Positions 38,145 through 40,869 of a stretch of DNA of 64,000 bases are shown piece after piece. This stretch comes from Kushneria konosiri (GTDB lineage Bacteria > Pseudomonadota > Gammaproteobacteria > Pseudomonadales > Halomonadaceae). Position numbers and translations under genes: made by a program. Positions within the stretch are counted from its first letter, which is position 1. Each line of letters begins with the position of its first letter. Under the pieces are notes generated by a model. The model searched no databases. It saw nothing but the letters and a program-made list of their open reading frames with translations, and was not told the origin of the DNA. Where the stretch lies: positions 3,162,001 through 3,226,000 of the forward strand of contig NZ_CP021323.1 in assembly GCF_002155145.1 (NCBI RefSeq), in the 5' to 3' direction.

Positions 38145-39455
38145 TCAGCGATCGTCGTCTGTTGCTCTCTCCTGTGGATTGGCACTCCGCCCGATGCCGC
38201 GATAGCAGAAGCCATGCTGCGCCACGAAAGCAGGGTCGTAAATGTTACGACCATCCAGAATCAGCGGCGTTTTCATCAAAGTCGATAGACGACGCCAGTC
38301 CGGATTCCAGTACTCCTTCCACTCCGTGACCAGCAACAGAGCATCAACGTTTTCACAGGCCGACTGAGCAGTGCCTGCAAGCGTCAGAAGAGGATGCTGA
38401 CCATAGTAGTGCTCGATGGCCGGCAAAGCCGCGGGGTCATGAAGCCTCACATGCACACCCTGCGCCCAGAGCGCATCCAGCAGGCGAAGAACCGGCGCAT
38501 GCGCGATTCGAGCTGTGCCGGGCTTGAAGGCCGCCCCCCAGATTGCCACCGTACGGCCTTCCAGATCGCCGTCGTAATGCTGCCAGAGCTTGCGAAAGAG
38601 CTCTTCCTGCTTTTGCTCGTTGACCTGTACAACCTGCTCAATCAGTCCGTTGGGCTGACCCTCGCGCGCCCGAATACTCGACAGGCGATAAAGGTTACGA
38701 GCAAAGCTCGGGCCGCCAAAGCCGCATCCAGGATAGAGATATTCGCGACCGATACGGCGATCTGAGCCCATTGCCTGACGTACCAGCTCGATATCGACAC
38801 CAAGGCTGTCTGCCAGACTGGCCAGTTCATTCATGTAGCTGACACGTGTGGCCAGCATGCCGATAACGGCAAGCTTGGTCAGTTCAGCAGCACGTCTTGG
38901 CATCAAACGGACGTTATTTTCGCGACGATTGAAGGCTCTTAAAAGCTCACCAATCTGGCGGGTCGCCCAGTCATCTTCACTGCCCAGGATCCAGCTGTCA
39001 GGACGCGTAAAGGTGGCCATGGCACGACCCTCTTCAAGCATGTCAGGCAGTGCGACCGCAACCTGACGCTCCTTGCGCAGCAGTGTCTCAAGCACTTCTG
39101 TATGGCCGATCGGAAATGTACTGTTGTTGACGAGTACGAAATCGTGCGGCTCGCGCCCCAGTGTCTGCTCGACCCACTGGTCAGCATCATTGCGCTGATC
39201 CGATGAAACGGCCAGCCAGTAGACACTGGCGCTCGGCAGCGACTTGGAGCTTTCACAGAGGGTTAGTGACCCATTGTTGATGCTCTGGGATAACTGGTGA
39301 TAAAGCCCCGGCTCATTTCTGATCCAGTCCGTCCCGGATAGAACATTCCATGGCTGAGCAGGGTGCGGCCACCAGTATACCTGGTGGCCTACCATTGAAA
39401 GTGCAGCGGCTGCCGTTGCTGCACTCAGTTCGCTTCCATGCACTACCACCTGCAT
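38145..39455 (-). CDS. UDP-glucose 6-dehydrogenase homologue with degraded active site
   Basis: The 436-residue protein keeps the whole UDP-glucose/GDP-mannose dehydrogenase layout, including RVSYMNELASLADSLGVD, GSDRRIGREYLYPG, GAAFKPGT, LLLVTEWKEY and the final DGRNIYDP with GIGR. But the N-terminal NAD motif GxGYVGL is replaced by HGSELSAATA, and the catalytic loop, normally GFGGSCFPKD, reads GFGGPSFARN: the nucleophilic cysteine is Ser250. The TDD-R of the AFKP segment is TARIAH. It is therefore probably not an active dehydrogenase. It starts two bases after galU ends and must be co-transcribed, so a role in UDP-sugar control or binding is plausible. Confidence 0.8.
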   Translation of the reverse strand: MQVVVHGSELSAATAAAALSMVGHQVYWWPHPAQPWNVLSGTDWIRNEPGLYHQLSQSINNGSLTLCESSKSLPSASVYWLAVSSDQRNDADQWVEQTLGREPHDFVLVNNSTFPIGHTEVLETLLRKERQVAVALPDMLEEGRAMATFTRPDSWILGSEDDWATRQIGELLRAFNRRENNVRLMPRRAAELTKLAVIGMLATRVSYMNELASLADSLGVDIELVRQAMGSDRRIGREYLYPGCGFGGPSFARNLYRLSSIRAREGQPNGLIEQVVQVNEQKQEELFRKLWQHYDGDLEGRTVAIWGAAFKPGTARIAHAPVLRLLDALWAQGVHVRLHDPAALPAIEHYYGQHPLLTLAGTAQSACENVDALLLVTEWKEYWNPDWRRLSTLMKTPLILDGRNIYDPAFVAQHGFCYRGIGRSANPQERATDDDR

Positions 39456-39457
39456 GA

Positions 39458-40348
39458 TTATGCCTCGCTTTGATAGCGCTTCAGCAGCTCACGGAATCCT
39501 TCGCCGTACTTGGGATGACGGCGGGCAAACGACAGTGTCGCTTCCAGATAGCCGAGCTGATGACCGCAGTCGAAAGTTTCGCCTTCCATACGATAGGCAG
39601 CAACATCCTGCTTGCTGCGCAAGGTATCGATGGCGTCAGTCAGCTGAATTTCGTTACCTGCACCGGGGCGTGTTTCAGCCAGCACCGAAAAGATACTGCC
39701 GGGCAGCAGATAACGGCCGATAACAGCCAGTGTAGAAGGCTCGGTACCGGTTTCAGGCTTTTCTACCATGCCTGTGATCTTTTCGCTCTTGCCGGCTTCA
39801 GGTGTTTCACCTTCCAGTGCCACGATGCCGTACTTGTAGGCAACTTCAGCCGGTACATCCTGAACCATGATCTGAGCAGCACCCGTCTGATCATAGGCAT
39901 CAATCATGCCACCCAGATCATTGCGCGTCATGCCTTCATCATCGACCAGAACGTCCGGCAGCAGCACTGCGAACGGAGCATCGTCACCGATGACCGGACG
40001 CGCGCAAAGAACGGCGTGACCAAGACCGAGAGCTTCCGGCTGACGAACGCTGATGATGGATACGTCGTCCGGGATGATGTTGCGCAGCTCATCAAGAAGC
40101 TCTTTCTTGCCCTTGGCTTCAAGCTGGGTTTCAAGCTCGAAATGCTTATCGAAATGGTTTTCGATGGCTGATTTCGAAGAATGAGTAACCAGAACAATTT
40201 CCTTGATGCCGGCCTTGACCGCTTCCTGGACGACGTACTGGATCACCGGCTTGTCGACAATGGTGATCATCTCCTTGGGGATAGCCTTTGAGGCGGGAAG
40301 ACAACGAGTACCAAAGCCGGCGACAGGCAATACTGCTTTACGAATCAT
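39458..40348 (-). CDS. galU: UTP-glucose-1-phosphate uridylyltransferase
   Basis: Makes UDP-glucose, precursor of polysaccharides, lipopolysaccharide sugars and trehalose (via OtsA). The 296 residues have the nucleotide-binding start KAVLPVAGFGTRCLPASKAI, the KEMITIVDKPVIQY segment, ALGLGHAVLCARPVIG, LLPDVLVDD and VEKPETG. ATG at 40348 has AAGGGAAAAGGA upstream, so the extension to 40375 is rejected. It heads the two-gene unit with the dehydrogenase homologue; a 521-base AT-rich spacer lies upstream. Confidence 0.96.
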   Translation of the reverse strand: MIRKAVLPVAGFGTRCLPASKAIPKEMITIVDKPVIQYVVQEAVKAGIKEIVLVTHSSKSAIENHFDKHFELETQLEAKGKKELLDELRNIIPDDVSIISVRQPEALGLGHAVLCARPVIGDDAPFAVLLPDVLVDDEGMTRNDLGGMIDAYDQTGAAQIMVQDVPAEVAYKYGIVALEGETPEAGKSEKITGMVEKPETGTEPSTLAVIGRYLLPGSIFSVLAETRPGAGNEIQLTDAIDTLRSKQDVAAYRMEGETFDCGHQLGYLEATLSFARRHPKYGEGFRELLKRYQSEA

Positions 40349-40869
40349 TCCTTTTCCCTTTCTATCGAATATCAAACATGTATGGACTTATGGCACAGTC
40401 GTGCTTGCCATGACCGTATCGTGATCCATAAGCCATTCAAAATCTTGCCTGAACAGGCGAAACGAATCACCACTATCGGGTAATCGGGTTATAACCGCAT
40501 AAAATACCGAACCTTTACCTTTATATCCTTGGCAAAATGTTTCTTTTTGTACAGCTCTATTCCCAAAATCACTTGTCGTATTTAAAGATAACGGTATAAA
40601 AAGAAATTTATGTTCCGCAGGTTTTGGAAGGCAACACAATCATGGATGGCCTGCGTCACTCCAGCATGATGCACTATTTATCATGCCTATCTCAGAACCT
40701 TGATTTTATGGTTCATTCAACGAGCCGGCTGGCTTTCGTCAGCCATCCTGCGAACTCAATTTAATTGGCATTGATAAACCGTACTGGTTCATGAACCTCA
40801 CAGACTCTATACAATACAGATCAATATCAGGGCGAGAAATGCCGCCCCTACCCCTGCAGGAGTTCATTG
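40349..40869. other. AT-rich intergenic region between galU and ubiG
   Basis: 521 bases without an established gene. It must contain the galU promoter (minus) and the ubiG promoter (plus). On the plus strand TTGTCG (40573-40578), a 16-base spacer and TATAAA (40595-40600) form a good promoter far upstream of ubiG. After it an ORF of 40 codons starts at ATG 40642, with GGAAGG ten bases upstream, and ends at 40764; its product is not recognisable. A minus-strand frame at 40388-40639 lacks a convincing start signal. A small RNA or long leader is possible. Confidence 0.5.

Follow-up and report, generated by a model that had tools for sequence, protein, structure and literature searches.

The described systems that come closest to the locus reported here are enzymes and regulators of nucleotide-sugar metabolism. 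BceC of Burkholderia cepacia (PDB 2y0c, 2y0d, and 2y0e) is a UDP-glucose 6-dehydrogenase (UGDH). GalF (NCBIfam TIGR01105, i.e., "GalU regulator GalF") regulates GalU, and the signal read by OpgH and UgtP is UDP-glucose. The latter two proteins are described, in the available parts of the reports, as glucosyltransferases that couple nutrient status to cell size (PMC3723540 and PMC5889556). In Bacillus subtilis, GlmR (YvcK) is presented in excerpts of two papers as a UDP-GlcNAc-binding regulator of GlmS (PMC7525490 and PMC6171935), and the title of a Listeria paper names GlmR an accessory uridyltransferase (PMC10128056). For the dehydrogenases themselves, an analysis of 229 sugar-nucleotide dehydrogenases gives conserved residues with their roles; in the sections used here, Arg244 of the S. 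pyogenes UGDH contacts the glucose of UDP-glucose across the dimer, a Gly-Gly turn binds UMP, and Lys320 is assigned to the UDP-glucose diphosphate (PMC4794789). In human UGDH, Arg260 and residues 260 to 280 are proposed to relay UDP-glucose occupancy between subunits; the C276S variant accumulates a covalent adduct, and the C276A variant leaves the UDP-glucose reaction incomplete while still oxidizing the aldehyde intermediate (PMC3184952, in the available text). Among the titles and abstract beginnings listed for UGDH homologs, galU, and pgi, we found no description of a UGDH-derived pseudoenzyme, and the available part of a paper on Halomonas hyaluronate does not mention the homolog.

The window analyzed here is a 64,000-nt stretch of the Kushneria konosiri genome (contig NZ_CP021323.1, positions 3,162,001 to 3,226,000). 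It carries a galU-UGDH homolog pair with the following features (class A and class C are groups of the homologs collected below).

38145..39455, minus strand: predicted non-catalytic UDP-glucose dehydrogenase homolog, 436 amino acids (open reading frame with an ATG start; Pfam domains; match to BceC, E = 1.6e-69)
39458..40348, minus strand: galU, UTP-glucose-1-phosphate uridylyltransferase, the upstream partner of the pair (TIGR01099, 341.3 bits; cut-off, 326.8)
39420..39440, minus strand: residues 6 to 12, HGSELSA, in place of the GxGYVGL dinucleotide-binding loop (from the alignment)
38706..38708, minus strand: Ser250 at the column of the catalytic Cys (Cys260 of S. pyogenes UGDH), where residues 247 to 254 read GGPSFARN
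38508..38516, minus strand: residues 314 to 316, TAR, in place of the TDD of canonical UGDHs
38754..38756, minus strand: Arg234, kept (Arg244 of S. pyogenes UGDH; 64 of 64 class A and class C sequences)
38712..38717, minus strand: Gly247-Gly248, the kept UMP-binding turn (64 of 64)
38523..38525, minus strand: Lys311, kept (Lys320, at the UDP-glucose diphosphate; 64 of 64)

The original prediction had described a full-length UGDH frame 2 nt after galU, with changes at the catalytic Cys, the dinucleotide-binding loop, and the TDD segment. This description was borne out: galU ends at position 39458 on the same strand, the ATG of the homolog starts at 39455, and all three motif changes are present. 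The galU gene probably begins with the ATG at 40348, rather than the TTG at 40375 of the mechanically called frame (39458 to 40375); this TTG lies nine codons upstream of the ATG, and a close relative (L001) has a stop codon between them. The closest named relatives of the homolog are from Kushneria species (94 to 97% identity). In the genome of the window (G000), pgi is located elsewhere.

By homology, the protein is a member of the nucleotide-sugar dehydrogenase superfamily, as its similarity to BceC (phmmer against 2y0e) is far above chance. The central UGDH domain (PF00984, 87.4 bits) and the UDP-binding C-terminal domain (PF03720, 88.5 bits) both score above their cut-offs, in the window protein as well as in 10 of 10 diverse relatives; one class D member (L189) falls below the cut-off for PF03720. 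The NAD-binding domain (PF03721) scores 21.8 bits in the window protein, under the cut-off of 27, and passes in seven of the 10 relatives (29 to 65 bits). The window protein also exceeds the cut-off of the NCBIfam model TIGR03026, "nucleotide sugar dehydrogenase" (203.2 versus 189.8), as do nine of the 10 relatives, so annotation by this model would name these proteins enzymes. An AlphaFold model from a shallow alignment of 10 rows had a mean pLDDT of 62.8, and the value stayed under 50 in most of the active-site segments. A Foldseek search with this low-confidence model returned BceC as the top match (E = 9.7e-28); since the TM-scores were near 0.5 and the rmsd was near 10.6, this match adds nothing about the pockets beyond the sequence. 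The UDP site is thus a predicted one, assigned from aligned residues rather than from a structure.

We collected homologs from the family of the window, from four other families of its order, and from other orders of its class. The resulting 126 distinct sequences comprise 67 from the main clade of Halomonas and Kushneria, six divergent sequences from elsewhere in the window's family, 14 from f43, 10 from f37, two from f36, one from f26, 12 class C sequences (f1 and f37), nine more diverged class D sequences (f36), and five from three families of other orders. They include that of the window itself and L049 (G043), in which the C-terminal portion is shifted out of frame with respect to its relatives; eight duplicates, canonical hits, pieces at contig edges (G082 and G139), and split copies in four genomes were left out. 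These split or frameshifted copies (G251 C1:2369482, G111 C1:2575738, G222 C1:2490499, and G266 C1:2034004) are likely assembly errors, since three of the four genomes are rated at most 95% complete, but G251 is rated 100% complete in one contig. The site of the catalytic Cys was located in all 126 sequences and is occupied by Cys in none. GxGYVG is likewise absent from all 122 sequences that cover the loop, the remaining four being class D rows trimmed there. The original prediction had named orthologs with the Cys and GxGYVG as evidence that would speak against it, and none was found in this set.

Within the family of the window, 274 of 275 genomes have some match to the homolog, which may be a canonical UGDH, and 254 have a match at E <= 2e-117; the top verified canonical UGDH match is 2.3e-77 (L070; 29 genomes reexamined). 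Four genomes that are 99 to 100% complete (G005, G117, G118, and G274) carry galU, in pieces in G117, and no homolog was found in them, so GalU can do without the homolog there. Trees were built by a quick method that flagged long branches, with a canonical set that was chosen from the hits and includes one sequence without Cys (L165). In a tree of 95 sequences, a branch with an SH-aLRT value of 100 separates 63 non-catalytic members from 32 others, and a tree built earlier from 92 sequences divided them likewise (64 versus 28). The branch between the non-catalytic group and the canonical enzymes has a length of 0.46 in the tree of 95 and 0.95 in the earlier one. This pattern is most simply explained by a single ancient loss of catalysis, after which the proteins were long preserved. 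L165 (G608, family f38) groups with the canonical UGDHs and has Phe at the Cys column (GGSFFPHD) and a GTNYVG loop; its loss of Cys is possibly separate from that of the non-catalytic group. Class C (L050 to L052, L054, L056 to L059, L061, and L109 to L111) is a second non-catalytic UGDH paralog, located mostly directly after pgi; 11 of its 12 members have Ala at the Cys column, and in all 12 the Asp264 column holds Thr.

The first Gly of the dinucleotide-binding loop is kept in the window protein, while the second is replaced by Glu, Tyr10 by Leu, and the third Gly by Ala. The columns of two NAD contacts, Asp29 and Arg327 (the latter bound to the NAD pyrophosphate and located two residues past TAR), hold Pro30 and Ala318, i.e., both contacts are absent. 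The equivalents of Arg260 and of the Gly-Gly turn of human UGDH are kept (Arg234 and GG). Two residues, the Arg of the DGRN motif and Lys263, were our own additions to the sites scored for column conservation. The other sites were taken from section 4 of PMC4794789, in S. pyogenes numbering, and mapped onto 64 class A and class C sequences (60 rows for the Asp29 column). Among these 64, catalytic and loop residues are nearly all gone (Cys260, 0; Tyr10, 0; Gly9, 3; Gly12, 3; Arg327, 1), several others are partly kept (the general base Asp264, 29; Thr118, 29; Asn208, 28; Ser117, 46), and Gly7 is kept in all. The UDP-sugar sites, in turn, are almost invariant (Arg244, Gly257, Gly258, and Lys320, 64 each; Lys204, 63), and the DGRN Arg is kept in all 64. 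Columns of the UDP site are more conserved than those of the NAD and catalytic sites (42 nonredundant rows; 6 versus 11 sites; Mann-Whitney p = 0.001). Glu145, near the diphosphate, is kept in 47 of the 64 and is absent from all 12 class C members, and the nine class D sequences keep Arg244 and Gly257 (9 of 9 each) and Lys320 (7 of 9) and mostly lack Lys204 (1 of 9) and the DGRN Arg (2 of 9); preservation of the sugar site therefore does not extend to every branch. The N-terminal domain is the least conserved one in class A (mean pairwise identity, 0.35, versus 0.59 for the central and 0.53 for the C-terminal domain); in canonical UGDHs, it is also somewhat lower (0.63 versus 0.78 and 0.64). 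The class A N-domain has near-fixed residues of its own, namely a Leu where Tyr10 would stand (83rd percentile of conservation) and an Ala in place of Gly12 (84th percentile).

Gene neighborhoods were compared by distances counted from the ends of tblastn matches. Of the 67 main-clade loci, 55 have a galU gene at most 120 nt upstream; 20 of the 67 had been picked for their neighbors (10 with and 10 without adjacent galU, the latter with a downstream coverage of only 85 to 91 nt), and among the other 47, galU is this close in 45. The same arrangement occurs in six of six divergent family members, nine of 14 f43 loci, and both f36 loci. In turn, pgi lies within 120 nt in all f43 (14), f37 (10), f36 (two), and f26 (one) loci, in all five loci from other orders, in nine of 12 class C loci, and in three of nine class D loci; the other six class D loci have it within 233 nt. 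The pgi neighbor was verified as phosphoglucose isomerase by PF00342 in three of three cases tested. Outside the main clade, 58 of 59 loci have galU or pgi within 300 nt, and no copy of either gene was found at L059, a class C locus. The conserved association is thus with genes at the branch from glucose-6-phosphate to UDP-glucose.

In genus g23 (72 genomes searched), an ortholog of galU was found in 35 genomes (E <= 4e-126), a galU of about 56% identity and no other in 36, and none in G253. At loci L202 and L205 and in these 36 genomes, the galU ortholog of the locus is gone and the divergent galU lies elsewhere, which looks like gene displacement inside one genus; two loci still carry short remnants. 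G253 (99% complete) has no credible GalU (best E = 4.1e-7) and carries the homolog (E = 1.5e-164); the absence of galU could be an assembly gap, as the genome is in about 350 contigs.

Our tentative preference, held at somewhat below even confidence, is that the window protein is a UDP-sugar-binding pseudoenzyme that would sense UDP-glucose, or regulate in response to it, where the Pgi and GalU routes part, and not the enzyme that the databases name. The parts of this reading differ in strength. We are confident, on the basis of the residues lost, that the protein would not act as a UGDH catalyst: NAD-dependent oxidation is very probably impossible because the Cys, the hydrolysis Tyr, two of the three loop Gly residues, and the Arg of the NAD pyrophosphate are lost. 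That PF03721 is recognizable in seven of 10 relatives and that Gly7, Ser117, and other sites are at least partly kept count against our reading. The kept residues suggest that the protein probably binds a UDP-sugar, most likely a UDP-hexose such as UDP-glucose, at the conserved sugar site of the dimer, and the original prediction's example of a UDP-sugar sensor fits these residues. A role as sensor or regulator, proposed from the gene neighborhood and by analogy to known UDP-sugar sensors, is the likeliest one in our view, though at less than even confidence. In such a mechanism, UDP-glucose binding would alter the dimer, the protein would act as a ligand-dependent regulator that reads the UDP-glucose level of the branch from glucose-6-phosphate to UDP-glucose, and the bound form might act on GalU, Pgi, or a consumer of UDP-glucose through protein contact.

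Several other explanations were weighed against this one. A decaying gene would agree with the loss of several conserved sites and with the few assemblies that have split or frameshifted copies; against it stand the dN/dS values of the homolog versus six Kushneria relatives (0.02 to 0.04, with galU in the same genomes at 0.02 to 0.03; only close pairs were used because many dS values were saturated) and the strong matches in 254 of the 275 family genomes. We reject decay, to which we assign next to no probability, on these values and on the conservation across genera. The original prediction had proposed that selection maintains a non-catalytic protein here and that the gene is not decaying, with a dN/dS test as a check, and the purifying selection and the 254 strong matches support it. 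An active UGDH with unusual motifs would explain the full-length frame, the TIGR03026 scores, and the PF03721 matches of most diverse relatives, but the Cys is lost in 126 of 126 sequences, Tyr10, two loop Gly residues, and Arg327 are lost in nearly all of the 64, and the human Cys variants either accumulate an adduct (C276S) or do not complete the reaction from UDP-glucose (C276A) in the available text of PMC3184952; these losses in the sequences examined make this explanation very unlikely. The protein might instead be a different enzyme, with a UDP-sugar chemistry that needs neither NAD nor Cys or with an N-terminal pocket for another cofactor or nucleotide. Lys204 (63 of 64), the near-fixed Leu and Ala of the N-domain, and PF03721 in the relatives that pass it are in its favor, and the title of PDB entry 5vr8 places UDP-xylose in the coenzyme site of human UGDH. 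However, Asn208, Asp264, and Thr118 are each kept in fewer than half of the sequences, unlike a conserved active site, and the N-domain is the least conserved of the three in class A; on balance, we consider a different enzyme unlikely.

Two further explanations make the protein a partner of another enzyme. The 2-nt spacing in the window and the frequency of galU immediately upstream (45 of the 47 unselected main-clade loci, as well as the divergent, f43, and f36 loci given above) would suit an obligate subunit or chaperone of the adjacent GalU. Nevertheless, 12 g23 loci that have no galU in 1.2 to 1.5 kb upstream (two with short galU remnants) retain an intact homolog of 430 amino acids with a dN/dS of 0.02 to 0.05 (four usable pairs), versus 0.03 to 0.13 at 12 galU-adjacent loci (seven usable pairs); the role thus seems to be independent of a neighboring galU. 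Half of the g23 genomes have only the divergent galU, and the close neighbor is pgi, not galU, in f37, f26, class C, class D, and the other orders. The four genomes with galU and without the homolog, together with the galU-less loci that keep it, argue against a role confined to the neighboring GalU. The loci without galU make an obligate subunit unlikely, and the suggestion in the original prediction of a GalU partner is weakened by these loci and by the many relatives next to pgi. A non-catalytic partner of a canonical UGDH, i.e., a heterodimer regulating UDP-glucuronate synthesis, would accord with the kept cross-subunit Arg244 and with the UGDH with Cys and GTGYVGL that many genomes also hold, including that of the window (C1:1083732-1084433). 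Against it, in a search of 15 genomes, the homolog was the only PF00984 protein found in G030, G137, and G141 (95 to 99% complete), and the only other one in G156 was of class C; the role in the former three is thus not to modulate a canonical UGDH. The neighbors, moreover, are galU and pgi, and we regard this partnership as quite improbable.

The gene is present in most genomes of the Halomonas and Kushneria family, scores above the NCBI cut-off for a dehydrogenase, and very probably does not encode one. Metabolic models or annotations that credit UDP-glucuronate synthesis on its strength would err, for example, in G030, G137, and G141. If the protein is a UDP-glucose sensor, it would offer a clear point of control, open to testing, where central carbon metabolism meets the supply of precursors for the envelope and exopolysaccharides; this bacterial group also contains strains used in biotechnology, among them Halomonas bluephagenesis.

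Among the known systems, BceC is both the best sequence match and the top structural match of the low-confidence model, and it shares the three-domain architecture and the UDP-sugar residues with the window protein, which differs in lacking the catalytic Cys, Tyr10, GxGYVG, Asp29, and Arg327. GalF is, like the homolog, a paralog of an enzyme of the UDP-glucose pathway; however, GalF derives its similarity from GalU and the window protein from UGDH. In the case of OpgH and UgtP, UDP-glucose status is read by a protein of UDP-glucose metabolism, as is proposed for the homolog, but these two are glycosyltransferases and not UGDH homologs. As a working model, GlmR comes closest: it binds a UDP-sugar and is reported to tune the entry enzyme of a nucleotide-sugar pathway, as the window protein is proposed to do. 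GlmR belongs to a protein family different from UGDH, and its ligand and partner have been reported, whereas the window protein is known here from its sequence and gene neighborhood. A broader and more doubtful proposal, by analogy with GlmR, is that these UGDH-derived pseudoenzymes form an ancient and so far unrecognized family of single origin that may serve as a gammaproteobacterial UDP-glucose checkpoint setting the flux through Pgi (glycolysis/gluconeogenesis) versus GalU (UDP-glucose synthesis), i.e., as the UDP-glucose counterpart of GlmR.
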